This document shows, in pieces, positions 40,361-64,000 of a DNA stretch of 64,000 nucleotides (positions within the stretch are counted from its first letter, which is position 1; each line of letters opens with the position of its first letter). The translations under genes and the position numbers were made by a program. The DNA is from Salminus brasiliensis. Taxonomy: Eukaryota > Chordata > Actinopteri > Characiformes > Bryconidae. The notes under the pieces were generated by a model. That model worked only from the letters and a program-made list of their open reading frames with translations. It was not told where the DNA came from and did not search any database. Location: positions 29,576,782-29,640,781 of the forward strand of contig NC_132893.1 in assembly GCF_030463535.1 (NCBI RefSeq), read 5' to 3'.

Positions 40361-40956
40361 TGAACGGAGACCAAAATCGCAAACTGGGTTACAGCTCCAT
40401 CAAAACAACCAGCGTATTCCTCCGCCATTCAACAAAGGAGAAATAAATAGGACTTAGTTTTCCTCAATCAGGCGACTTGATTTGAATTGGCCTCTATGCT
40501 GCTCCCAATCTACTACATGTGACCGCTTATGATAATCAATATCTCCAAATGATTAATGATTAATGCTATTCGTATCAATGTACACTGCTGGTTTATTAGA
40601 AATGATATAGTGCACGCTGCTGTTAGGCTACACAGAGGACTGTAATGAGTCCCAGTGATGCCCGGACCTGTACAGGAATGTGATCCAATGCAGGTCACGT
40701 GGTAAATCAACACATATTAAAAATGTGGTAAAATGTACAAAAAAGTGGTGATACAGATGGGATTTTAGTTATGGATTTAAAAAAAAAAAAGGTGAAATAG
40801 TGAGTGAAATGGATTGAACTGTAAAGCAACAGCTAATTCCAAGCCTGTCCCCCAGATGGCGCTGCTGTGCGTTTGGTCTGTAGAGTGGTTGTCAGGAGCA
40901 GCTCAACACAGGAGGTGGCTGGACTGCTCAGAGCCTTCACAGAGTTTCTTCAAGCA

Positions 40957-41085
40957 ATGGATTCTTTCCTTTGTCCTACATGTAATATGACTTTCAGATC
41001 ATCACGTTTTCTGGCGAAGCACAAGGAGAAGTTCTGTATTGGAGATGTTGGTCAGACTGAGGAGTCTAATGTCCATCAAAATCTG
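40957..41085 (+). CDS. ccdc17: ccdc17 exon 1, zinc-finger exon
   Basis: Encodes CPTCNMTFRSSRFLAKHKEK then FC, with C-x2-C, H and C spacing. The start chosen is the ATG directly before this motif; an in-frame ATG at 40867 would add about 30 unrelated residues and is less likely. Three phase-0 donors are possible (after GGAGAT, after TCTAAT, or after AATCTG at 41085). Intron 1 starts with three copies of a 15-mer, CTGGTGATCTGCACT, near 41120-41165. Confidence 0.65.
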
Positions 41086-44000
41086 GTACTGCTCTCTCTC
41101 TGAAATGTCCTACAGGTTGGGTGTGGTGATCTGCACTGGTGATCTGCACTGGTGATCTGCACTGCATTTTGTGAGAGTAGATATTCTGATTATGAACTAT
41201 TGTTGATAAAAGTAGTTTTTGTATTAAAGACAGAAAGGACATACATGCCTTGGCCTTTCGGCTCCATACGTTCAACAGGTTAAAGGTTTATACCAAATTA
41301 AACCAGGTTTATGTCTTTTCTTTGAAAGAATTGGTTGCAAATATAATACAATGCAATACATTATAAAATGTGTTGTTCCAAACCGCATTAAACACCACTT
41401 TTCATTTTTAATTCATTAATATTTCAAGAAATATCAATTCTGTATTATGATTAATACCAAAAAATAAAATGCATTTATTTTCTGGTGTTCGTCATGTTGT
41501 CATGGCTTAATATATCCATTTTTCTTATTAAAAAGAAAACCTTTAAATATAGGATGTGCAAAAATCATCACTGCTGTATGACCATCTACTTTAATTTGCA
41601 CACAGCCATTTAGAGAAGCATTATCCAATACTTTGGGAGGAGTTGGGGTACTTTTGAGGGGATGTGGTGGGAATGCTCTTGTTGCTGAATGCAATCAAAT
41701 CCTCACAGCAATGCTCCAAAATGCTGTAGAAGCCTTCTTCCCTGGACAGTAGAGACAGTTACTCCAACAAAAGCAGGAGACACCCTTTTAAAGCCCTTGA
41801 TTTCAGAAGAATCAAGAAATGATCAGGTGTCTCAATACTTTTGTCCATATAGTGTATGTTATAGTGAGGTCTTAAAACATTTGTGGGACTGTTTATGTGT
41901 GATTCTTACTGATTTACTGTTGATATTTTGTGTATATATATCTTGTTATTCTTGTACGTTCTTTAGGGTTATTTAGTAAAGACACCCAAACCATGTATAC
42001 ATACAGAAATATGAAAGATACAGTGGGCATGATAGACAATACACCAATAGTACTGTAAAGTATTCAGCATAATACTGAGAAATATCTAAAGTACCAACTG
42101 TACCATCTTTCCACAGAGCGAGAGGATAAGAGAACTACGCAAGATACGTCAGCGGGAAAGGCCTCATGGAAGAGCCCAACTCAGCCAGCAGAACTTTCAC
42201 ACACCAACTCAGGACCAGCTACAAAAACCCACCAGTGAACCAGTGAGAAACACACATAAACAGTCCCACAAATGTTTTATGGCCTCTACTTTTATTGGGA
42301 TTGCCACCACATTGCTTAAATTGCAGCGATTCCAGTTCATTGGGATAGAGATGTGTGTTTCTATAATTGTGCACAGACTGCAGGAGGGTCACAAGATCAG
42401 CTCCTTCAAGACCTACCTGAGATAGGAAAGCCGAGGGTGGTGACGTCTGCTGACAGCAAACACCTGAACAAGCAAAGGAGAGGTAATGATGAACTCCTGC
42501 TGCGTGTTCTGTCCTGAATTGAGATGTTTTGTCCAACAGTTCAGCCATTTGAAGGACCAGCGTTCATTTTATTGGTTAGTTGCAGAGATGAAGATGCAGG
42601 AGCTGGCTGTTCAGAACAAGAAAGTGGCTCAGCTGGAGGAAATGCTGTTCGAGCTAAAAGAGCAGGAGCAGAGGAACACCAGCCTACTGGAGTCTCTCGT
42701 GGATCATCTACAGCATGATCCAATGGAGGCCAAGTCTGTGGCCTCAAAGGGGTTTGAAAGAAATTCATTTTAAATATATTATTTTAGTTGATTCCCAATG
42801 GAATTACATGTTAATGAACTTTCCCCAGTTGTCCTGGTATTGAATGGGCCTTAGTTCAGTGGAGTGTAGGATCTCCAAGCATCAGGACCATTCTATTTTG
42901 TTCTACTAAAACAATTTGGGCACAAAATGCTATAAGCTTTACGGCCATGTGTTTTAAGACCTTTAGAGAAGATTAGGGGGGCATATTTAATCATATTTGA
43001 TTTTTTTTTTTTTTTATGTATTGATACGTACACTGATCAGCCTTCATTTTACTACCTGACTTAAGAGGTGAGGTGAAAAACTCTTTAACAAGAATCAAAT
43101 TGTGATTGTGTCTAATTGTAATGACTGGCAGGTCTCGTGGGGGGGTTTCTGGTATGCAGTGGTCAGTACCTACCAAAAGTGCTCCAAGAAAGGGCATTCA
43201 GTGAATCAGGGCCAGGGTCATGGGTACCTAAGGCTTAATGACCTGATCCATTGAGGCTCCACCTCACTACTTACAGGACTTAAAGGATCTGCTGCTAACG
43301 TCTCTGTGCCAGATACTACAGGACACCTTCAGAGGTCTTGTGGAGTCCAGGCCCCGAATGGTTAGATCTGTTGTGGTGGCACGAGGGGGAACTCCTTCAA
43401 TATTAGGCAGGTGGTGCTAATGTTATGGCTGATCGGTGTATTATACATTTAGTATGTACAGCACTGTGATTTCCAGTCAGTGATATATAATTAAGTGGAG
43501 GATACAGAGAAAATGGGAGTCTTAACAACCATGCAAGGCCTGGTAGACCACCAACACACCAAATGTGATGGACATGAATGGGTTAAACGAAAACGTCAGT
43601 GACATGCCATAATACATTATCTTGTAGGGAAGACATTCTGCAAAACAGGACTCCACACCTGCACGTTCCTGAGACTAAAGAGCCAGTCACACAAACCTGC
43701 ATACCTGTTTATGGGGGTGGAGTCCTTTCTGCAGAAATCAGGTAATGTGTTCATGTATGTTAAGATCCCTGATAAATTCAGATTTCAGTTTTGCTCCAGT
43801 ATTTTGCTAGATGTTAGAGGCCATCTCCACACAATCTCTAACATCTAACCAAAATAAAACGAAGCTTTATCTAAATGGATCCATGTAATCTTCTGATCTT
43901 CCACAGTACTCTCCGTCTCTCCTACCTCCAGAGTGGTGGGAAAGATCCTCAGATATTGGCTCAGCTGCAGGACTTGTTAAATGAAGCCCTCAGAGTGGAA

Positions 44001-47000
44001 ATGCAGCCAGGGAAAGCTCCTCTGCCCAGGCCCTGCCAGACTGACAGAACACAACATGGGCCAAGTACTCTTAAATCCAACAGCTAAACCTTATCAACAC
44101 TTTAAAAGTCTTTATTTTTATAAACCATTTAAAACCCCCGGAAGCCATTCACACTGACAAATTCATCAAGGTTGTGTAGAGTCAAACCTGAGCACAGAAC
44201 ACGGGCACGTACAGTATATTCATATTTAGGGAATCAGTAGAATCAAATACACATCCTGAGAAATATTAGATATGTAGCTTAGAAAAGATCAATATCAGAA
44301 ATAATATAAGTAAAAAAAGGATAATTATTATTAAAATGATATATGATGATTAATTAAAATTAATGTCTTTCAATGTTAGATATTATATTTTAAATAGTTG
44401 TTATTTTAACCCTGTAAAGTGATTTAAGCTCTAGCCTGAAGGAGGAGCTGTGCACTCACAGCTCAGCCCTGAACTCTGCCTATAAGGGTAGCCATTGGCT
44501 CATGACTGTTAAGCAGAGTGTGCATGTACATGCCTATAAGAGCACATTGGGCGTGGCATCTGCAAATGATATGCTAATGAGGAACTGGGTGAGTGGGAGA
44601 GTTTGTTTCTGAGGTTTGTTTTATTAAGTGTGTTTAAATCTCTGCTCAGTTTAAAGGGAAGGTCATAGGTGTCTCTGTGCGCTCCAGTCTGCCCTTGTTT
44701 TTCCTCAACCTTGATGAATAAGCACCAGTGTATGAATGAAAGTTACCTGTGTAACATGATTCAACCTAAAGTCGCTCTGGATAAGAGATTCATTCAAATG
44801 CTGTAAATTTAAATGTATAATAATTCCAGATACCGAACCAGTCAAAAGTTTGGACACACCTGGTTGAATGTGTCCTGACCATCGTCTAAAAAACATTTGA
44901 TCTGAATGCTTGGGGTGACAATATTTTTTTAAAAAGAGGACACAGGGGAGACACGGGTATTCACCACAGTTAGGATGTCATGGTCATATAGGCTAATAAG
45001 GTTGTTTGTTGGTCTTCTGCTGAATGGGTAAATGTGTATGTATTAATGTACATTAACATACTGTAGCTGCAGGGTTTGAAAGGTATTTCCACCCTCTCAC
45101 ACACACACACACACACACACACATTGCCTCAGTCCTACAACTTAGGCCTACACTGTTAAAAGTATAAATTCCTAGACTAACTTTGAGGGGTTCTTCAGGG
45201 GTTCCTCCACTGTTTTAAATTGAAGAACCTCCAAAAGTTCCTCAAGGAACTTTTACTTTGAACAGTGTACCTGAACCCCCACAGCCACAACATCATAACT
45301 ACTGTGAATACCCGTGTGTCCCCAGTGTCCTCTTAAAAAGTGGACACACTACCATTTGGTACAATATTCTGAAGATGATGATCAGCACACATTCAACCAG
45401 ATGTGTCTAAACTTTTGACTGGTACTGTGCTTCTACAGTATGATTACTGTGCTGCTGTTAAATTGTTTTGTGTGCTTTCTGTAATCCAGAACCGCAGGGA
45501 AATTGGAAGGATTTCAGCAGAGAGCTCATATCTACAGAGTTAGAAAACCAGCACTTGGAGGAGGAACTCATGAGACTGCAGTTAAGAAAGAGAAGACCTG
45601 CGTTCACCAGGACCACAACTCCACACTGTAGTATCTGAGCTCTTTCAATGCTATTCCAGATGCTGCATGACTGTGTTTGTCAGCTCTCTTGTATGAAACT
45701 GGACTGTTTTTTTTAGGTCGACACCGTGAACAGGAGATGAGGAGTATGAAGATGGACATTGATCTGTTAAAACATGAAATTGAGATTAATGGATTGAGGA
45801 GGCAGATTAGGAGCAGAAAGGTGGAACCAACCCTAGCGACTTTCCCCCCTTTGGTACAGAATATGTTTAGTAATCAACTAAAAGCAATGGTTTGGTGGAA
45901 AATCTGATTTACACAATTTTCCCTTTAACCTGAAGAAAAGCAGGTTAACCAAAACATGAGGTTTGTGTCTTTACTTTTGCGCTGGAGCTATGAGGCTAAT
46001 GTAGCCTAATAATAATGGAATAATGGAATAATCTCATACCCTGCTAATTTGCACTGCATTCCGAAATCCATTCACATTTGCCTCGATCTGTGTCAACACT
46101 GACAGAAGTACTGAAGAAATCCAGGTATTTTGAGGTAACTACTGTTGTTAGCTACGCCTCATGCTTAGGGCCAAATTGTGTAAATTAGGATTTGTCTAGT
46201 ATTTGATAGTTTAGGTACACAAGTGATTTGTGTACATGGTTGCAGGCACACAGTGTTATTTTTTATCCAGTATTTTATCATGCTGTAATAACCTTCTTCT
46301 TCTTTATAGGAGGAACCCAGGTCACAAACACCACCCTTCCTCAAATACCCTGTAAAAGAGGGCCTGGGACCTGCTCCCTATGATCCAATGTAAGTTTATT
46401 GTTAATATTTTATATATATTTTTATATATATATATTTTGTTACAATGTTGATCAGCCAAGACATTTTTGGGTGTTTAAAGTTTGCTTTTTTAGTGTTTAG
46501 TATGGAAAAATGTATTTTCCTTGTCATAGCTGAATAATAGTAGAGTTGGGTTTAGTATATAGACGTGATTTACATTTAAAGCATTTAGCAGACGCTCTAA
46601 TCCAGAGCGACTTACAAAAGTGCTTTGCTATTTACTTAAGAATAAACTCAGCTAGTTGGAAAAGGCTAAAATTCAAAGAAACCTCCAAGTTAAGACACTA
46701 CTAAACACAAGTCAATAGGGTGACCACTCTGCTATTCGCCCAAGTATTCTCGGAAGAGGTGGTTCTTCAGTCTGGGTTTGAAGACAGCGAGCGACTCTGC
46801 CGTTCGGACACCCAGGGGAAGTTCGTTCCACCACTTTGGTGCCAGGACAGAAAAAAGCCTGGACGCTTGTCTCGACGCTTGTCCTGGGTCGAGCCGAGCC
46901 GTACTTGAAGCTCGAAGGGCTCAAGTACGTGATGAACGTACCATGAACTTGAACACTGTTAACCTCCCTGTGAAAAGAAAATATGACATGACCAAAAATA

Positions 47001-50000
47001 GGGGTGGTGGGGAAGCTGGTGAAGCGAGTTGGCAGTCATGCAAGGCTAAAAGCTAACCCCAGAAGACATCACCATGATCTTTTTTTTTAGCTAACTAACA
47101 GCACATCATGCTCACTGGGCTGTTTTTACAAAAAAAAATAGTTACAATGTTCTTGTTACAAGTAAAAGAAAAGAAAGCTGTGCTATGCTGTGTTGCACAT
47201 GTGAGCTCTTGCAGTGCAGTAAACCAGCAAAATATATATATATATTTTTTTTTTATTATTTAATGAAAGGAAAAATGCTGTGTTATATTCTGAGGCAAAG
47301 TAACAGGGTGGTAAATAGGCTTGTAAAACTGCATTTCAGCATTTTTCAACTCAACCAAAGTCACATACTCACTATTTATACATCAAATAACTTAACACAT
47401 ACTGAATAAATAGATTATATGGCACATTTGAACCATATCTCATATTATCAGAAACAATTTATACTCAATTAGTTAACACAGTTTGAGGTAAGCGATGTTT
47501 AAAGTGCATAGTTTACTGAATGCTAGTTAATGGGATACAAGCTTTTATTTCTTATTACGTTAGCCTCATAGCTGCAGCGCAAAACTAAAAAAGCAAATTC
47601 AACATCAACTACGTTTGGGGTAGGAGTAAGCTTGTGTCAGTGTCAGTGAGCACTGAATTACTGATTACAATAAAAAGGAAAAGGAAAGCATTCACTTATG
47701 CTGATTATGGAGCAGCAACATGGAGGAATCCACTTTGGCTCTTGTGTTTTGCTGTTGCAGGGCAGGTTTTGTGGTGTTTTATGATTTCCTCCTGGGCTTG
47801 TGTCCATCGTACAGAGTGTGTCGTCTGATGGTGGGGTTGTACGCTGGGGATCAGTGTCTGGGAAGCCCCTTTGTATTGCCCCCTGTCTACTGTGGGTCCT
47901 TCAGCTTATCCACACACCCTCCTTGGTACAGTCAAGGACAAAAGGCAGTCATCGCCACTAAGCAAGCAGTGCCAGAGTAAGGATGAACAGCATCTACACT
48001 ACAATGTTTTTACACTACAAATGATAGTTGATAGTTGATAGTTAGTAGGAAGCTGAAAAACTGAGAAAATGGCCTACTTTCAGAATTAAATTATGATAAA
48101 AATGAATATCCAGAATGCCTCAAATGTGGTGATCAAAATTTCTGGCCAGATGACCTTCCAAAAGTCAATAATAAATGCCCATGAATTTATCAGTCATAAA
48201 ATGAATAAGATTAAGAAGGTAGTGTGCAATGAGACGAGGGCAATCAACTTGACCTATTTTTAAATTATTATTCATAAATGATTACATTTAATGCATATTA
48301 ATTTATTTAGACAGGATGTCTGACTGTGATACTCTATCTCATCCAGGGTTCAGCCTGCACCATCAGTGTGTCTGATGATACAGGTACAGGCCTCAGGAGG
48401 ATACGACATCTACGGCCAGGAAGTGACCAATCTAGCCCCGCGAGGCTGGGTGAAGCTAGACATGTTTGACCATCACAATCGCATCATTAGTGGAAGATGG
48501 AAAATACCCGTCCGCATCCTTCCAGCGAAACCCTCAATGACCGCAGCAGAAGTCAACTCTGTTCCACAGGTTTATTGCAGACGTGACTGGGATCCATTCA
48601 GCACAGATTATTGTTATTGATTCATATTTATCCAGTATCTCAGAGTCTTTTGTGTCTTTTGTGTTTCAGTTATTTCATCCTATATTAGTGTTACAAAGCC
48701 TTACAAATGGACCATAATGTGTTAACTGAGGTGCTCATTTGTCATGTTCTTGGGTTGTGGGGAGTTCAGAGTTGACTGGTAACTCAGAAACACAGTTTTA
48801 CCTTATTATCGACTTATCTGTGGCGCTCCGTTTAAGCACCTAAGCCATATCAATGAGAGATTGGAGGTTTGAGTCCCAGAGAGCATAATTAGCCCTGCTT
48901 TCTGGATGGCTTTTCCCTCCTTGCCAGTGTAAGCTTCTGCTGTCATACCAGAACTGGCAGTTAGCCTTCTCTTCCAAGTACGTACAGCTGTCCAATGATG
49001 TGGTTTTAGGGGCAGCCCTCTCAGCACTGGCATCATCGTGTGATAGGCAGTTATAGCTAGAGGATGAAAATTGAAACTGACTAAAATTGTGTCGAAAAAC
49101 AATATATATATGTACATTTTACTGATCTGTATTCTAGCTGGACAGTGCAGAGCTGTTCCTGAGAATTGTCAACGCAAGGGATGCAGAGCTTCAGAGTGCG
49201 GTTCCGATTAGTATTCACACTGCTGGGATCTACAGATACCCCCCTGTGGTATGAATCTTAAATTACAATCAAATGTTTTAAAAGTTGTTGTTGTTTGAAA
49301 ACATAGCATAACTAATATTTCCTAGTTATACAGGATTTCGTGATAGATATAAATGGACAAAAGTATTGGGACACCTGCACACTCATTGTTTCTTCTGAAA
49401 TCAAGGGTATTAAAAACAGTTTATCCTGCTTTTCTTGGAGTAACTGTCTCTACTCTACTACTGTCCAGGGAAGGCATTCTACTACATTTTGGAGCCTTGC
49501 TGTGAGGATTTGATTGCATTCACAAGAGTGTTAGTGAGGTCTCATCTCCAACTCATCCTAGAAGTGTTCCATCATTCCAGAGAACAGTGCCACTGATCTA
49601 CAGCTCAATGCTGGGGGGGCTATATTCCCCTCTAGCCCATGTCTGCACCTGCCTGATATATTATAGGTCCCTGTTGTGCTGCCAAAACAGCTCTGACCCA
49701 GTATCTGGTAGATACTGACCACTGCATACCAGAAACCCCCCACAAAACCTGTGTGATGTTTAGCCATGCTCTGACCTAGTCGTCTAGCCATCATAATTTG
49801 CCCAGGTGTCCTGGTGGCTCAGACTTTTACGCTTGTACTAATGTTCCTGCTTGTAACCCATCATCTTTGACCCTTGACAGCTGCCACTCTAACCAGATAA
49901 TCAATGTTATGGCTGATCAGTGTTTATTACATGGGAAACTGTTTTTTACACTGAAGTGATCAGCAGTGTCATCCCTTATTTCAGAGTCTCTCAGAATTTC

Positions 50001-51160: not shown

Positions 51161-53603
51161 ATGGCCTTGCTCCAGCTCTGTACAGTGGCTGCAGTTTTGA
51201 GTATATTATTAGCAGCAGGTAACAGTTTTCCCTCACTATCCCAGTGTAAATGCTCAGTAAAGCTTCCAGAAATCTAGAGAACACTGTAGAAAGATAAAAC
51301 AGGACTCATATTAAGTGCTAGTCTTAATCTGTTTAGTGTTTGTAGTGCTAAGAAAAAAAAAACTGTTTCTTATGACAAGCTGTGTTACGTTTCTCAGCTC
51401 AGGGTTGGTGGGGGTTGTAGTGCTGCATCTGACCAGACAAATGGTGATCTTAAATAACCCAAGAAATGGGCTCATCCTGCTGGTCATTTACTAGCTGCAA
51501 AGGCCTTGATGTAGGGCCAAATGCTTCTGCATGATGATTATGAAGACCTTCTGGTTCTGAATGGAGAGCTGAATGGATCTGAGGGCAAGTTCATTATCTT
51601 CCAGGGTTTTCTGAGAGTTGTGGGACTGGACACTGGCAGTGTGATGATGGTCAGTGCATCCCCAGGAAATGGCGCTGTGATGGAACAGGGGACTGTCTGG
51701 ATGGCTCAGATGAAATGGATTGCTGTATGTATGGTTTTTTTTTTTCATTCTTTCACTGTATATCCAGATGCTTGTGGACACCCCTTCTATTGAAGCATTG
51801 AGCTCAGCTACTTTAAGTTGCACCTCATTGCTGACACAGATGTGCAAATGCACAAACACACACAGCTGGTCTAGTCCCTGTAGAAAAAGATTGCCATTCT
51901 GTATAAAGAGCTGTGGAGCAGTGAAACTGTGCTCTGTCCATTACTTTTGGGATGAGGTGGGGTGGTGATCATCCAACATCCTGACCTTACTAATGCTCTT
52001 ATTACTGAAGGTAATCAGATCCTCACTGCAATGCTCCAGAATCTAGTAGAAAGCCTTACCTGGACATTAGAGACAACAAAAGCAGGATAAGCACATTTTA
52101 TTTGTATTTATTTATTTAAAATACCCTTGACTTTGAAAGAAACAGTGAGTAATTTCTGTAGTAATCTGAGTAGTCTCAATACTTTTGTCAATACAGCCTT
52201 TTTAAAAATCTGAAACATTAGCAGTACCTAGCAGCATTGCAACATTAACATTTGTTTGCTTTTAACATAGTATTTAAATATAAATATAAAAATAATAATA
52301 TTTTTTGGTTTTAAGTAGTATTTTAAATAAAAATCAGTCTTTTTATTTGAATTCTTGTAAAATCAATACTTCATATATGCAAATATATGCACTGACTTTT
52401 TTACTACATTAAAATGCATAATAACTTGGTTCTTATTCTTTACGTTATAAAATTTGACCAGATAAGTTTGATGCAGAAATCTCACAGTTCTGTGTTTTAG
52501 TGTTTGTGTGTTTAAATGTTTGGCAGTCAGTAACCATGCTGAAATTCAAAATATTATTGAACATGTTTAACACCATGTTAATACACCCTCTCTATGGTTT
52601 GAGTGTCTCTTATTTTCTGTATTTTGTGGCAGTAATCAAGAGTTTTTTTTTTTTTAATCTGTGCCATATTCTCATTTAGCAGAGTAACTGTATTCTAATG
52701 TAAATATACAGTAAAGATGACAGGAAACTCCTGAGTGTGTGGCATGTGTAGTACTGCATTTAACCAGACAAATCACTTGATGATAATCTTAAATACCTAA
52801 AGGAATGTGTTTATCCTACTGATAACTGGTCAGTAAGACATTGTACATTTAGTAGCTGAAAAGGCCTTGTGGAGCTAAAATGCTTCCTTATGATTATTAT
52901 GACATGATAAAGATTTAATTAAGGCCCTTTTTCAGTTCAAATGTGGTCATTTCTGCATGGATTAAAAGTTTCTTTTTTTATGAATCATAAAATTATGTCC
53001 TATGATGAAATTTGCCCATGCATAATAAAAAAAAATCAGTTGTATAGAACCTGAAAATGCACACGAGTGTCGGTTCTAGCCGAACAGGTTTCTGTTATCC
53101 CTTATTTTATGTCTTTATATAGGAGTTCGTATCTGTTCCTACAGCTTGCCCACAGGAGGATTTTGAGTGCGCTGATACGACCATGTGCGTCACCAAGGCA
53201 GAAGTGTGTGATGGACGACCTCAGTGCACAGACGGGTCAGATGAACTGAATTGCAACCAAAGTTATGGCTGCCTTCCTGGTGACTGGGCCTGCAGGAACC
53301 GGATTTGCATCCTCCAGGAGCTGCGCTGCAACGGAGTGGACGACTGTGGAGATGGCTCTGATGAAGAGGATTGTGGTGAGCTGTTGTGGAAAATGTGGCC
53401 AATTATATATTTTTATTCATTTATTTATTTGGGTTCTTGCTTCTGAATGCGTAACACAAGAAAATGACAGTTTGCTGAACTGATCTTAGGGCCCTGTGGA
53501 GGTCTGAATGTCCGCTGCCCAAATGGAACGTGTTTGGCCTTGAGCGAGAGATGTGATGGAGTTGCCCAGTGCTCTGATGGGAGGGATGAGCCGGTTACTT
53601 GTG
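51161..53603 (+). CDS. lrp13: lrp13-like signal peptide and first LDLa cluster
   Basis: Exon 1 encodes a hydrophobic signal peptide ending near LLAA. Exons 2-4 encode four LDLa modules: [60 protein letters not shown] and [20 protein letters not shown]. Three have a calcium-box ending with SDE ([24 protein letters not shown]); the fourth is changed to DGRDEPVTC, which may weaken calcium or ligand binding. Exon 2 is recognised by its acceptor CTTCCAG, the only one that puts the cysteines in frame. Confidence 0.85.
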
Positions 53604-57400: not shown

Positions 57401-60400
57401 TTAGACAGTTCAAAGAAAGACTTCGAAAAGCATAATTTGCAGATTCCTGATCTGTCCCTCACTGTTGTAGAGCTGCAGGTGATGAGTCTTCTGAAGATGA
57501 GAAAATACTCTGCTGGTAAAGAGTGGACCGTTGCGGAAGAGATTATCGCCGCCTATGAGCCATACACAGTGACCATGCTCAATGATGTCATCACACTGTG
57601 GAGACGGCAAGATGGGATGCGCCTTGAATCAGTTGCTGTAGAGAGTGGAGTTGTTGGCGTGACTGTTGCTCTGAGAGAATTAAAGCAAGGTCAGTGAACG
57701 TGTCCATAAATCAAATTAACCTCCAGGGCTCAGCACAGGGTTCATGAGGCCATTACATGCATTGCAAATCCGGTTTAGTTATGAAGCACATTTTTGAGTA
57801 GAATATTCTATTGCCTTTGTTATCTAAGGGTGCTTTTGCACATGCGTAGTTTGGTCCAGACTTTTCAGTTTTGAATTAAAATTGCATATGTAAAAGGTGC
57901 CTAGACCGTGGTTCGGATCAAATTGAACCATGGTTCGATTTGCTTGCAGTATGAGTAGGGCTTGAGGATATGATGAAGTACTATGACATTATATTTAAAG
58001 ACATTTTTATGATAACACAATATTTCATGATACATGTAATCACCGAATAAATGCATCAGTATCGACAGATTCTTAAATTTGACATTTTATTCAACCAGCC
58101 TATAAATTCAGCTTTTTCCTTTCCCCTTAGAAGAATCACTTAGGAATGCATCTGCTGCTCAAGTGACCTGTAGGAGCCCTTCTGTCTTGTGTAAAGACAC
58201 CTCAGTGTGCATCTCTTTGACCCAGCTGTGTGATGGAAAGAGAGATTGTCCGGATGGATCAGATGAGTCATCCTGTGAGAACGTCTGCCCGAAACATGGT
58301 ACCTGAGGTTGCTACACTGTTTCAGATGTTTGCCAGGATGTTAAGTGGTTGCTCTGTTCTCTGGTGATTGCTAGGGTGTTGCACTAGGGTCAATTGCACT
58401 AATAATCAATGTCCGTTATAAATTTGTAACTTTTACTTTTTCCTGATCTAGGTGACTTCCTGTGTAAGGACAAGACACAGTGTATTGGAAGTTATTTGGT
58501 ATGTGATGGGTACCTTGACTGTGTTGATGGCTCTGATGAGGAGAGTTGCCCCACTGTTGCTGCATCAAAGGGCATCAAGGCATCGCCTTTGAGGTGCCGT
58601 TTGGGCTCGAAGCTCTGTAAGGATGGCAGTGAATGCATTATGCTTAGTCATGTGTGTGATGGAGAGGTGGACTGTAAGGACGGATCCGATGAAGAGGAAT
58701 GTGAACGTCAGTGCAAAGCCCGTAAGTAGTACAGCTATGTGGTTTCTAATGAAATCCAGTTCTTCGGATGTGTGACGTTTTTAATGTTTCTTCAGATCAG
58801 TTCCACTGTGCTCATGGGAGGATGTGCATAGACAAGAAGCTGGTCTGTGATGGGACTCCTCAGTGTCAGGATCGCTCTGATGAAATGGGCTGCTTTACTA
58901 CATCTGAAGGCTGTAGCCACCACTGTGATGAGAAGACCCGCTGTATTCCAGAAAGCTTCCTGTGCGATGGAGAGAGAGACTGTGCGGACGGCACTGATGA
59001 AGCAGGCTGCCGTGAGTGTTTCAATGAACATTTTTACATATGCCAGTGTGGGTTTTACTTTTTTAAATCTGGTTGTTGATCTTTATGTTTAGTCAAAATT
59101 TTGACAAATGGACCAATAGAAATTCTCCAAAATGTCTTGGAATAAAATATTTTTTACATTGACTTCCAATAAAAGTTAGCTTAAACTTTGAAATTTTTCA
59201 GCTTCTGCCACTGTAGCTCCATCAGATAAACCATCAACTGAACCAAGCTGTAAAACCCCTTCCTCCCTGTGTGCGGGTTCCTCGGTGTGTGTCAATCAGT
59301 CTCAGCTGTGTGATGGGAAGTTGGACTGTCCTGATGGGTTTGATGAGCTCCATTGTTTACATGCATGCTCAGATCCAGGTAATGTGAGGTATGAGGTCTG
59401 GCAGCTCTCTAAAATGTCCTTTTTAGTCCAGGTATGATTTGTAACTGTTGACTTTGGGTCTTCCTTGTGTAGGCCAGTTTCTGTGTAAGAACAAGAGGAA
59501 GTGTATTAAGCAGGCTTTGGTGTGTGATGGCCACTCAGACTGCCCTGATGGTTCAGATGAGTTCTCCTGCCCTGCTTGTCCTCTGCACTGTGATGATTGG
59601 ACGGTGTGTCTGACCAGTCAACAGTTCTGCGATGGCAAAGTGGACTGTAGGGATGGCTCAGATGAAAGGAACTGCTGTATGGACCTACTGACATATAAAC
59701 TTAAATTGTGCTTTAAGAGATGCTGAACAGGACTGACATTTGTGGGTTTTATATGCCACCCCCTCCCGCAGATGACCGGAAAACAGGATCTTCATCTCTG
59801 AAGTGCGCTCTGGGCTTCAAACCTTGCAAGGATGGAAGTGAGTGTATCCTCTACAGTCATGTGTGCGATGGAGAAAAGGACTGCCGGGATGGGTCAGATG
59901 AGAGTGACTGTGAGCGCAAGTGTAACAAAGGTATGACAACTGGCAGTGAAACCTCACATGGTGTGTTGGCATCTGGTTGAAATTGGGTAAAATGAAAAAA
60001 GGAATGCCTGAAATTGCAACACTGGTAATGTTGACTGTTTTTTCCTGTGTGGGTCCTAGAATGTGAAATCGTGTTTTCCTTGGCATGGTTAAATTATAAG
60101 TTTGGTACATGGACGTGACAATCCATGAACCTCAATCACTGTTATTCCTTTAGTCTGGCATAACCAAAACTGAACTGGGGGAAAAAAAAGATCCAAATCC
60201 TTGCATTTACACCCCCATAATTTACAGAAACCTCTCCAACTACTGCACATCCTAGTAAAGACTGGTGATACATGACTGAGTTCTATGGTGGTTTTGATAT
60301 TGGAGCGCAGCTAAACATGCATTAGAATGGAAAGTAAGACTCGAGAAAGACGCACCTGTGGAAACGAGTGGGGACAAAACTAAAGGCTAACTCTGCTATA

Positions 60401-62149
60401 ATCTCTTTAGCTTGCTAACAGCATATTGCACAGAGCAGACAGCACAAGAGGACGGCAACACCATCCAAAAATATACAGGAAAAGTAAGGGGTGGGTTGTG
60501 ATTGGCATGTGTCCTGTTTTTTGTTTATTTGTTTTTTTATTATTAAATACCTAATTTTACCAGGATCTCTCAACCCACTCATTAGTACTCTCCCAATCAC
60601 CTGTAACTCTCTGGACATTGGGAGGGATAGAACAGACCCATGCGCAACCAGTCACCACCAATGCAATGTCACTGGGCGACTAACGTGCTCTAAAGAAAGC
60701 ACTAGGTACCTAGCTCTGATGCATTGGCTAGCAGGCGCCAATGCAAGCCAGCATCACCCTCAAGTGATTATAGAAGAGAGAGAGCGAGAGGAGTGGGGTG
60801 GGCATCTATCCAGAGAGCAGGGCAAATTGTGCACTCTTTGGTTATGCCCGCTGATAGCGGGCAGCGTGATTACTGTGATTCAAACCAGACAGTTTCTGGT
60901 CATAGTACCAACGTCAAGAGCATTAGAGCTTTGCGTGTTAATAGTACTTTGTGTTCATCACAGTTGGATCCAATATAATGCAAATAAAACCAGGATTAGT
61001 AGTTAACTAGGTATGTACTGTAGTTAGGACTTGTAGTCTTGTGCATTGGTGCTAGACACTTGAAGTCTGAAACCCTCATTTATCTATTACTTTTTCCTTC
61101 TAGACCAGTTTCAGTGTGCCCATGGGAGAATGTGTATAGACAAGAAGCAGATGTGCGATGGCACTCCTCAGTGTCAGGATCGCTCGGATGAAATGGGCTG
61201 CATTACCCGATCGGAACTCTGCCATCACCACTGTGACAATAACACCCACTGCATCCCAGAAAGCTTCCTGTGCGACGGCGAGCGAGACTGTACCGATGGC
61301 ACTGATGAAGCGGACTGCCGTGAGTGTTGTGATGGACTCTGTATGAGTTTGAGTTGTATTGCATCTATTGTGATTTAATGGTTCTAATGTAATTGTAATG
61401 TTTTCCAGCATCTGCCACCACCTCTGTAGTTCCTTCATATAAAACTCCTCTTGAACCAAGCTGTAAAAGTCCCTCTATCATGTGTGAGGGTACCTCGGTG
61501 TGTGTCAGTCAGACTCAGCTCTGTGATGGGAAGTTTGACTGTACCGATGGGTTTGATGAGCTCTTCTGTATACGGGCATGCTTACATCCAGGTAATATAT
61601 AAATAAGGTGGGGGATGAAGCCCCCCCTTTTGAGATGTTTCCACATCTTGGCTGTGATTTGAAACTGAAGGTGGTCTTCCTTGTGTAGGCCACTTCCTGT
61701 GTAAGAACAAGCGGAAGTGTATTGAGCAGGCTTTGGTGTGTGATGGCCACTCAGACTGCCCTGATGGTTCAGATGAGTTCTCCTGTCCAGCTTGTCCTCT
61801 GCACTGTGATGATTGGACGGTGTGTTTGACCAGTCAGCAGTTCTGCAATGATAAAATGGACTGTAGGGACGGCTCCGATGAAAGGAACTGTGGTATGGCT
61901 TTTTTTGCTGTAATGTGAGCGTTATAATCGGTCATGTCGCTCTTATGGAATGCTTTACCACCTTGAATGTTTGTTTCATAGACAACAGCAGCAAACCAGA
62001 TGCAGGAACTCTATCCATGGTGTGTCCTCCGGGCTTCAAACCATGCATGGATGGAAGCGAGTGTATCCTCTATAGGCACGTGTGTGATGGAGAGAAGGAC
62101 TGCGTGGATGGGTCTGACGAGAAGAATTGTGAACGCAGATGTAATAAAG
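51161..62149 (+). CDS. lrp13: LDL-receptor-related protein 13-like, 5' part (24 exons)
   Basis: Endocytic lipoprotein receptor; Lrp13 of fish binds vitellogenin at the oocyte surface. Exons: 51161-51218, 51605-51724, 53145-53375, 53490-53603, 53854-53973, 54257-54379, 54525-54728, 55121-55289 (or -55328), 55390-55558, 56112-56334, 56513-56632, 56712-56930, 57036-57356, 57405-57689, 58131-58298, 58452-58721, 58796-59011, 59202-59378, 59473-59676, 59772-59930, 61104-61319, 61409-61591, 61689-61892, 61982-62149. Nearly all introns are phase 1. About 1480 residues are seen and the gene is open at the 3' end. Order: signal peptide ([19 protein letters not shown]), LDLa x4, EGF, calcium-type EGF ([10 protein letters not shown]), YWTD propeller, EGF, second propeller, LDLa x15 or more. 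VLDLR/LRP8 do not have LDLa repeats after two propellers, which argues for lrp13 over them. The name is from memory of architecture, not a search. Confidence 0.8.
51764..52197 (+). mobile_element. Tc1-like MITE, copy C (fullest)
   Basis: The left end ATATCCAGATGCTTGTGGAC and the right end GTCTCAATACTTTTGTCAAT. The interior shares CAGATCCTCACTGCAATGCT and GAGACAACAAAAGCAGGATA with copies A and B. Located in lrp13-like intron 2. Confidence 0.7.
53671..53762 (+). repeat. Unclassified interspersed repeat, copy 2 (shortened)
   Basis: Starts GCTTCAAAATCCAGTTGATG and ends GTAGGGGGAGCCCAGGAGCA. It lies in an lrp13-like intron and is an internally deleted relative of the copies at 391-720 and 55687-55980. 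Confidence 0.6.
53854..54379 (+). CDS. lrp13: lrp13-like EGF pair
   Basis: Exon 5 encodes [20 protein letters not shown] then [10 protein letters not shown], an EGF module; exon 6 encodes [20 protein letters not shown] then [13 protein letters not shown], a calcium-binding EGF. This pair comes before the first propeller, as in LDL-receptor family proteins. Confidence 0.85.
53993..54230 (+). mobile_element. MITE (ACACTCCTAAAAATAAAG type)
   Basis: Starts TACACTCCTAAAAATAAAGC, then GGTTCATTGAGTGATGTTGG; the far side has GCCATTGCTCAAAGAACCCT, in inverted relation. Same family as 14445-14545. Located in an lrp13-like intron. Confidence 0.6.
54525..56632 (+). CDS. lrp13: lrp13-like first YWTD propeller and EGF
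   Basis: Exons 7-10 encode a six-bladed propeller with blade motifs [76 protein letters not shown] and [14 protein letters not shown]. Exon 11 is an EGF module ([14 protein letters not shown] then [10 protein letters not shown]). In the LDL receptor the propeller drives acid-dependent ligand release. Exon 8 has two in-frame donors 39 nt apart. Confidence 0.85.
55687..55980 (+). repeat. Unclassified interspersed repeat, copy 3
   Basis: Starts AGCTTCAGAATCATGTTGAC and ends GGGGGCCCAGGAGCATAAAA. Shares GTGTAAAATCCTC and CCTCAGTCCCC with copy 1. Fills most of an lrp13-like intron. Confidence 0.6.
56712..57689 (+). CDS. lrp13: lrp13-like second, degenerate propeller
   Basis: Exons 12-14 show blades with eroded YWTD motifs: [60 protein letters not shown] and [16 protein letters not shown], then a last part without a clear motif ([19 protein letters not shown]). 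No EGF separates its end from the following LDLa array. Exon 13 (321 nt) is the longest in the gene. Confidence 0.75.
57830..58060. repeat. Possible hAT-related MITE fragments
   Basis: GGGTGCTTTTGCACATGCGT and GTTTGGTCCAGAC at the left, and GACCGTGGTTCGGATCAAAT then GGTTCGATTTGCTTGC, resemble termini of fish hAT MITEs. A second piece (57955-58060) has TATGACATTATATTT and CAATATTTCATGATAC. Weak. Confidence 0.3.
58131..58721 (+). CDS. lrp13: lrp13-like LDLa array, start (exons 15-16)
   Basis: Three LDLa modules: [40 protein letters not shown] and [20 protein letters not shown]. They match, in order, the modules later carried by exon 18, the first half of exon 19, and exon 20. Here the last two share one exon. 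A module equivalent to [16 protein letters not shown] is absent. This looks like the founding or contracted version of the later cassettes. Confidence 0.85.
58796..59930 (+). CDS. lrp13: lrp13-like LDLa cassette A (exons 17-20)
   Basis: Four exons, six LDLa modules: [100 protein letters not shown] and [20 protein letters not shown]. Sizes are 216, 177, 204 and 159 nt, all phase 1. Each module has SDE-type calcium boxes except variants with RSDE, GTDE and FDE. Confidence 0.9.
59931..61103 (+). other. lrp13: Long intron between the LDLa cassettes
   Basis: About 1.17 kb, much longer than introns inside either cassette. It marks the duplication junction and contains the SINE-like repeat at about 60565-60985. 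A 171-codon ORF (60491-61006) over that repeat is an artefact. Confidence 0.7.
60565..60985 (+). repeat. Interspersed repeat, copy 2 of 2
   Basis: Contains TCTCTGGACATTGGGAGGGA, CAGTCACCACCAATGCAATG, GGGCGACTAACGTGCTCTAA, CATTGGCTAGCAGGCGCCAA and GGTCATAGTACCAACG. Related to 14585-14860 and familiar from ostariophysan fish. Confidence 0.55.
61104..62149 (+). CDS. lrp13: lrp13-like LDLa cassette B (exons 21-24)
   Basis: A near copy of cassette A in the same order: exons of 216, 183, 204 and 168 nt encode [100 protein letters not shown] and [20 protein letters not shown]. Two exon lengths are unchanged and two differ by 6 and 9 nt, which keeps the frame. The 94- and 97-bp introns between exons 18-19 and 22-23 also share a GGTCTTCCTTGTGTAG end. 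Confidence 0.9.
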
Positions 62150-62592
62150 GTAAGATTAGCACAGAATATGCTTAAATCTCATTTGGACAATTTGGAGCTT
62201 GTTGTTGGTGCTAGTAGTACGGGTGTACTACCCCCTAACTTGTGTATATTTTTGAATAGTCAAATTAACACAGTAGGCTAATATGGTGGATTTATATTTG
62301 AAGAGCTTTTCAAAGACAGCGCTGTTGCATAGTAGAAGCCATCTACTTATGGTGTCCATACTTTCCCCTGAAGGTTGTTTTGATTCTTGCATTTGAAAAT
62401 CAGGGTGCTTTGTAAGCAGGTTTATGGGCTCTATTAGAAACTAGACCAATTACAGTGATTTTTACCATCTCAGATCCCACTAAAACCAACTTGATGCCAT
62501 TGCACTACAGATTGAATTGAATCTGTACTTACAGACTGCATTAGGTATACCACATTGTCAATATCCTTTTGTGCTTCTAACAAAAACGTATA
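62150..62592 (+). other. lrp13: Next lrp13-like intron, upstream of the Tc1 element
   Basis: No LDLa-coding cysteine pattern before the transposon. The donor GTAAGA at 62150 opens the intron. Confidence 0.6.
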
Positions 62593-62594
62593 TA

Positions 62595-64000
62595 CAGTGC
62601 CCTCCATAATTATTGGCACCCCTGGTTAAGATGTGTTCTTTAGCTTCTATTATTTAGAGTTTTTTTCTAAATAATATAGGACCACGATGGAAAAAAAGAG
62701 TAAAATCCAACCTTTAACTCAAATGAATTTTAAGGGAAAAAAATATCCCTGACTAAGAAATAATTATTCTTCATAAAATCACCTGTTCTACAATTATTGG
62801 CACCCCTAACATTTCTTAGGAAATAAATGTAATTAAAGTATTTCTGTCAATTCTACAGTAGTTTACGAAGTTGATCAGAGTATGTAGAAACATTTAATTA
62901 ATTCCCTGGGGTATAAATATGACGTGACACAGAGGCCATTTCTCTTCAACATGGGAAAGACAAAGAAACATACCATTCGAGTAAGGCAGATGTGTGTTGA
63001 CCTCCACAAGTCAGGCAATGGTTACAAGAAAATAGCCACTCACCTACACCTGTCCATATCTACTGTCAGAGGAATTATTAAGAAGTTTAAAACAACTGGA
63101 ACAGTGGTAAACAAGTCTGGACGAGGATGCAAGTTTATTTTGCCACCCCACACAGTGAGGAGGATGAATAAAAAGGTCTCCAAAGCTCACTGTTACAGAA
63201 TTACAACAAATGGTAGCTTCTTGGCGCTATCTGCATGCCAACAAGCTGTTTTGGAGGCCTGCACAGAAAAAACCTTTTCTCACTCACAATCATAAACGCA
63301 AACGTTTGGAGTTTGCTAAGCAGTACTGGAACTTCAACTGGGACCGTGTGCTTTGGTCAGACGAAACTAAGATAGAGCTTTTTGGCAACAAATGCTCTAA
63401 GTGGGTCTGGCGTAACGCAAGAGCTGAGTATGCAAAAAAGCACCTCATGCCCACTGTGAAATGTGGGGGAGGATCAGTGATGCTGTGGGCCTGTTTCTCT
63501 TCCAAAGGCCCTGGGAGCCTTGTTAGGGTGCATGGCATCATGAATGCTTTGAAATAACAGGACGTTTTAAAACAAAATCTGGTGGCTTCTGCCCAAAAGC
63601 TGAAGATGGGTCGTCACTAGGTCTTTCAGCAAGATAATGACCCAAAACATATGGCCAAATCTACACAGAAATGGTTCACCACACACAAAATCAAGCTCCT
63701 CCCATGGCCATCTCAGTCCCCAGACCTCAACCCTATTGAAAACCTGTGGGGTGAGCTGAAGAGGAGAGTGCAGAGGAGAGGACACAGGTCGCTGGATGAT
63801 TTAGAGAGATTGTGCAAAGAGGAATGGTCAAAGATTCCTCTATCTGTATTCTCCCATCTTGTGAAACATTATAAGAGAAGATTAGGTGCTGTTTTGTTGG
63901 CAAAAGGAGGTTGTACAAAGTATTAACATCAGGGGTGCCAATAATTGTGGTACACATGATTTGATGTTAAACAATTATTTCTTAATGTGGGATTTTTTCC
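62595..64000 (+). mobile_element. Tc1/mariner element, right end outside the window
   Basis: Begins CAGTGCCCTCCATAATTATT then GGCACCCCT, after a TA. A second AATTATTGGCACCCCT lies about 180 bp inward (62792-62807), which gives the outer and inner direct-repeat sites of an IR/DR Tc1 element. The right arm's inner site, AGGGGTGCCAATAATTGTGG, starts at 63932 and the arm runs off the window. It carries a broken transposase. Confidence 0.85.
62951..63926 (+). pseudogene. Broken Tc1-family transposase
   Basis: Starts MGKTKKHTIRVRQMCVDLHK with a helix-turn-helix (HLHLSISTVRGIIKKFKTT). The catalytic part has [25 protein letters not shown] and [17 protein letters not shown], the DD34E signature. It is dead: a frameshift near 63175-63190, an apparent in-frame loss of about ten codons near 63220, and stops at 63555-63557 and 63618-63620. 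The gene ends TKY at 63926. Confidence 0.85.

Follow-up and report, generated by a model that had tools for sequence, protein, structure and literature searches.

The locus considered here raises the question of how an unusually long array of LDLa modules was built, and of what such an array would do for the receptor that carries it. The window analysed is a stretch of 64,000 nucleotides (C16:29576782-29640781 of G000, a 1.07-Gb genome, presumably of a bony fish), and the 40 kb past it was also examined; coordinates are those of the window, continued past 64000 for the DNA beyond. The answer that we favor, with a probability of roughly 0.7, is that one gene of the LDL receptor family carries an array of seven exon cassettes that has been subject to purifying selection and gene conversion, and that its product would be an endocytic lipoprotein receptor with spaced multivalent binding.

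The predicted gene and its cassettes

In the gene model, exon cores were placed by eye, and GT/AG sites with matching phases were chosen by a dynamic programme. After this automatic pass, seven exons in the array and one EGF exon were set by hand, and some ends of the EGF5 and P4 exons are approximate. The model predicts ~54 exons (53 plus the final exon) and 47 LDLa modules in a protein of ~3,516 aa, of which 3508 aa are encoded up to and including the tail exon; in its automatic version the frame stays open, without a stop, between the ATG at 51161 and the tail (~81.2 kb). From the N-terminal side, the order of modules is a signal-like exon, four LDLa, two EGF, propeller P1, EGF, a degenerate P2, and then the LDLa array. 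This is followed by four LDLa (T1-T4), EGF modules, P3, EGF, P4, EGF, one LDLa (module Z), EGF, a transmembrane (TM) stretch, and the tail (Table 1).

Table 1. Features of the predicted gene, in window coordinates or their continuation past 64000
Feature	Coordinates	Strand	Basis and remarks
Exon 1: predicted start codon; hydrophobic stretch resembling a signal peptide	51161..51218	+	gene model; signal peptide judged by eye
Exons 2-4: N-terminal LDLa modules L1-L4	51605..53603	+	gene model; 4 PF00057 stretches (Pfam)
Exons 5-14: two EGF modules, P1, EGF, degenerate P2	53854..57689	+	gene model; one PF00058 stretch (Pfam)
Cassette c1, short form A B D E F, exons 15-17	58131..59011	+	gene model; exon 15 end hand-set
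Cassette c2, long form A B C D E F, exons 18-21	59202..61319	+	gene model; exons 18, 19 hand-set
Cassette c3, exons 22-24 (A, B, C, D)	61409..62149	+	gene model; exons 23, 24 hand-set
2126-bp intron from c3D to c3EF, first part	62150..64000	+	contains presumed Tc1-like element
c3 E-F exon	64276-64470 (continued), beyond window
c3EF to c7	to 71713, on C16 beyond window
T1-T4, propellers 3-4, C-terminal LDLa, TM, tail	after c7, to ~81.4 kb, on C16
Module Z, C-terminal LDLa	79520-79627 (continued)
429-bp c1/c6 tract	58589..59017 in c1; 68055-68483 (continued) in c6	+	3 mismatches; identical 74-bp intron

By its predicted domain content, this is a large gene of the LDL receptor family. The cysteine pattern identifies 47 LDLa modules, a core pattern 46 (missing L4), and Pfam PF00057 also 46, with 37 stretches in the array and nine elsewhere in the gene (four and five in its two halves, the C-terminal five being T1-T4 and Z). 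The EGF modules and YWTD propellers were matched by PF00058, PF14670, and PF07645. In phmmer searches the P1-P2 region matched LRP2, LRP4, and LRP6, mainly over P1. Support for P2, a degenerate propeller, is weak. LRP2 supplied the top-scoring PDB chains both for P1-P2 and for P3-P4. A hydrophobic stretch at ~80.5 kb, judged by eye, is the candidate single TM segment, and the tail contains the motif FVNELY, which lacks a proline and is not a canonical NPxY. The idea that the first half of the gene is a recent copy of the second was rejected: P1 and P3 are 25% alike over 228 columns, and P2 and P4 give short, weak matches.

The cassette is present seven times in tandem, from 58131 to 71713, providing 38 LDLa modules in 24 exons. 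Four cassettes are short (c1, c4, c5, and c6, with five modules each), lack module C, and carry B and D in one exon; the three long cassettes (c2, c3, and c7, with six modules each) have B and C sharing an exon and D in the next. The length of every array exon (24/24) is divisible by three, and both exon ends are in phase 1 in 18 of the 24 automatically and in the other six once these were hand-set to GT/AG at matching places. Since in the model each array exon thus begins and ends in phase 1, gain or loss of a cassette keeps the frame, as skipping presumably would. Tandem Repeats Finder, which covers periods up to 500, returned nothing relevant. Outside the gene, the cassette matched loci at no more than 50% identity (150 of 205 candidates scored).

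An earlier note on this DNA, which extended to exon 24, had described a cassette duplication. Its lengths for exons 17-20 (216/177/204/159 nt) and 21-24 (216/183/204/168 nt) were reproduced under the same numbering, together with the module order. Exons 17, 20, 21, and 22 were obtained automatically; exons 18, 19, 23, and 24 were hand-moved to phase-1 GT/AG sites, so the length agreement for those four is not independent. The model also agrees that exons 15-16 hold a three-module version (A, B, D) and that 15 LDLa modules lie between P2 and 62149, with four more upstream. The suspicion that the array may continue proved correct, because extension in the 3' direction reveals the rest of c3, c4-c7, and the 3' end of the gene past base 64000. 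The duplication itself is supported by the clustering of modules by position, but it is a series of seven copies in two forms; a simple two-fold duplication is ruled out by that number.

The intron between c3D and c3EF contains a transposon-like relic (window 62570-64000 and beyond), which we take to be a Tc1-like DNA transposon. Pfam gave no match on this intronic stretch, for which the frame may have been wrong.

That one gene spans both halves is a prediction. It is unlikely, though conceivable, that there are two adjacent genes, one upstream that holds P1-P2 and another, lrp13-like, beginning at the array. The C-terminal half alone is 1062 aa (4 LDLa, EGF modules, P3, EGF, P4, EGF, LDLa, EGF, TM, and tail), near the size of a whole Lrp13, which in eel is described as having 1234 aa and 7+1 LDLa (PMC9935665). 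However, the open frame and the phase-1 introns are continuous from P2 into the array, and no TM stretch or stop was seen by eye between them in the model, which argues for a single gene.

Homology and age of the copies

Each of the 38 array modules has as its nearest relative a module of the same type in another cassette (38/38, with the c1/c6 copies counted). When the c1/c6 pairs are left out, mean identity is 69% for the 103 same-type pairs versus 46% for the 575 other pairs, and none of 2000 within-cassette label shuffles reached the observed same-type identity. On a module tree (47 rows, 31 columns) the six types need five changes, which is the minimum; shuffled labels needed a mean of 24.9, and 0/200 were as low. 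In this tree 25 of the 42 inner branches are open, and, with few columns, types A and B form single clades in just 14% and 4% of 200 bootstrap trees. A tree of A, B, and D together splits the long from the short cassettes with a support of 100/100; the E-F exon tree contains no supported split (long clade 32/51).

The forecast that exons 17-20 would pair one by one with exons 21-24 holds in part. Exon 19 pairs with 23 (92%) and 18 with 22 (79%, with c7A at 78%), but exon 17 is closest to the E-F exon of c6 (99%), with 21 at only 82%, and exon 20 is slightly nearer c7D (78%) than 24 (76%). Likewise, the resemblance reported for the adjoining introns is modest: by global alignment the c2/c3 introns are 57% and 43% identical and the c1/c2 EF-to-A introns 36%, although one c1/c6 intron is identical throughout its 74 bp.

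Pooled dS between cassettes, computable for 17 of the 21 pairs (four were not), ranges from 0.38 to 3.2 and exceeds 1 in 12 of the 17; dN/dS for the same 17 pairs is 0.08 to 0.40. The cassette copies are mostly old and have diverged under purifying selection. The lowest pooled dS is that of c1/c6, reflecting a near-identical tract, followed by that of c2/c3 (dS 0.52).

The c1/c6 tract consists of two copies, 9.47 kb apart, with 99.3% identity over 429 bp. Such identity is what would be seen if some cassettes were haplotypes or misassembled copies of each other. Yet the sequence before the tract has ~45 differences in 148 bases (~70% alike), the intron after it is 46% identical, and c1A and c6A are 55.6% identical. 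In addition, nucleotide identity per module among the other copies is 50 to 95% (94 to 100% for D, E, and F of c1/c6), the introns have diverged, and dS is often above 1. Because the copies are mostly old with low dN/dS, the cassettes are not an assembly duplicate, and we regard an assembly artifact as highly improbable. The simplest reading of a near-identical tract with diverged flanks is probably gene conversion. The c2/c3 B-C exon, 92% identical and flanked by introns at 57% and 43%, may represent an older case.

Lrp13 or another member of the family

Identification of the gene as lrp13 is plausible from its C-terminal extra LDLa: module Z lies after the last propeller and before the membrane, matching the '+1' mark of Lrp13. 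Teleost Lrp13, as described in PMC9935665, likewise has an N-side LDLa array, EGF modules, and one additional LDLa close to the membrane, and the predicted propellers and candidate single TM are as in the family. In contrast, published Lrp13 proteins carry 7 to 13 LDLa on the N-terminal side, + 1 (PMC9935665), versus 46 (by cysteine pattern) + 1 here, most of them in the seven-fold cassette, and the present gene adds an N-terminal block with two propellers ahead of the array. Since the range of 7 to 13 covers the species studied so far, this difference lowers the case for Lrp13 membership without closing it.

It is a serious, if lesser, possibility that the gene is not an lrp13 by descent and represents a paralogue, or some other member of the LRP family, that binds another ligand. 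The fishes compared in PMC9935665 retain rchy1 as the upstream neighbor of lrp13, and kcnv2b is named in the same figure. With an RCHY1 protein query, rchy1-like exons were found on unplaced contig C43 alone; the zf-CHY family gave C43 as well, together with a sub-threshold match on C13. These exons (C43:824-9958, L030) neighbor a Kv-type channel gene, a candidate kcnv2b, on a 57-kb contig that also has a minisatellite-like repeat at ~8.2-9.7 kb. Given the kcnv2b in the published figure, C43 looks like the lrp13 neighborhood, yet the LDLa pattern was not found in its 56,971 bases. Moreover, the neighboring genes resemble CCDC17 and claudins, and the two lrp13 copies reported in Takifugu rubripes (PMC11772764) mean that the present gene could be a paralogue. 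On the other side, rchy1 ends 824 bases from the end of C43, so its true neighbor may lie off the contig. A query from P3 to the tail returned the gene's own exons; other loci gave only short stretches, at 28 to 58% identity (55 of 226 candidates scored), and the position of module Z also favors lrp13.

Several other features were observed around the gene. Within the window, ~40800-48620 contains a coiled-coil gene with an N-terminal zinc finger, presumably resembling CCDC17; zf-C2H2 was below the Pfam cut-off and a second piece had no match. About 4 kb downstream of the predicted gene, an open frame with an EGF and a hydrophobic stretch (85241-85600 continued; match C16:29662109-29662333) is 41% identical to the gene's C-terminal EGF-TM region and is possibly the remnant of a tandem paralogue. 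Two claudin-like open frames follow on the minus strand (93664-97485 continued; Pfam was applied to the first). An LDLR/VLDLR/LRP8-type locus with at least eight LDLa and one propeller is present 150 kb downstream on the same chromosome (C16:29791176-29809333).

Among other receptors, LRP2, LRP1, and LRP1B are also very large, with LDLa clusters between EGF-propeller blocks. Megalin (LRP2) has 36 LDLa modules, LRP1 31, and LRP1B 32, distributed over several clusters (four in megalin), and each has eight propellers. Here, in contrast, a single array of 38 has a cassette period, and with four propellers and one main array the model does not have the megalin architecture. VLDLR/Lr8, with its one propeller, is an oocyte vitellogenin receptor that likewise has an LDLa array. 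It differs in having eight LDLa repeats (PMC9935665).

Candidate ligand pockets and proposed function

Pocket positions in the modules were assigned from what we take to be the equivalent positions of LDLR repeat 4. The canonical model has a lysine of the ligand docking into an acidic pocket that calcium stabilises, with an aromatic residue reinforcing the interaction (PMC8164048). At these positions type F modules have Phe with D/E/D in 6/7 and type D modules have His with D/E/D in 7/7; the acidic trio is present in none of the 24 A, B, C, and E modules, and Trp is found at the aromatic position in 0/38 array modules. The full pocket set is also absent from the gene's nine non-array modules (0/9, with Trp in three). 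It is present in 14 of 22 control modules from 11 loci of other genes, a sample that leans canonical because eight of the 11 loci were centred on best Pfam matches. The calcium-ligand acids are complete in 27 of the 38 array modules, and one is missing in all seven E modules.

The proposal that more modules would simply expand yolk-lipoprotein binding is not supported as stated, since the aromatic residue and acidic trio occur together in one module type only. With four module types lacking the pocket residues, binding may rest on other contacts. We suggest instead that successive tandem duplications of an exon cassette of five to six modules enlarged the ligand-binding region, and that the copies then diverged under purifying selection, with the c1/c6 pattern pointing to at least one local gene conversion as its mechanism. 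The product would most likely be an endocytic receptor that depends on calcium and takes up large lipoproteins. In each cassette, F would be the main lysine-docking module, D might be a weaker second, and the rest would serve as spacers or secondary contacts; binding would then be multivalent and spaced, with one main docking module per cassette in place of 38 equivalent sites. Lrp13 is described as the main VtgAa binder in white perch (PMC4651544), and by analogy the best candidate ligand would be a yolk lipoprotein taken up by the oocyte.

A less likely alternative is a mostly structural array, acting as a spacer or stalk, or one whose length drifts through unequal crossing-over; either way it would bind little ligand. 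In its favor, the aromatic residue and acidic trio are missing from most array modules, and Trp is never found at the aromatic position. Nevertheless, dN/dS is well below 1, and the D and F pocket residues are kept across old copies. More speculatively, the array could act as a molecular ruler: up to seven lysine-docking stations (F, six of the seven intact, with D helping), ~233 residues apart on average and kept partly alike by D-E-F gene conversion, would allow one receptor to grip one large yolk particle at many points. If so, the number of cassettes could vary between species or individuals, tuning yolk uptake.

From its sequence, the array is a real, well-formed exon-cassette expansion in a known receptor family, larger than first described, to which a function can be assigned conditionally. 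A literature search, from which many subscription papers fell outside, gave no vertebrate LDLa cassette expansion among the matches listed. By the counts given above, the gene would have more LDLa modules than LRP1, LRP1B, or LRP2, arranged as a regular super-repeat versus the irregular clusters of those receptors. It thereby offers a natural test of whether binding comes from the number of modules or from a few that bear pockets. It also suggests that the variation in module number among Lrp13 proteins (7 to 13) could stem from in-frame exon cassettes together with gene conversion.
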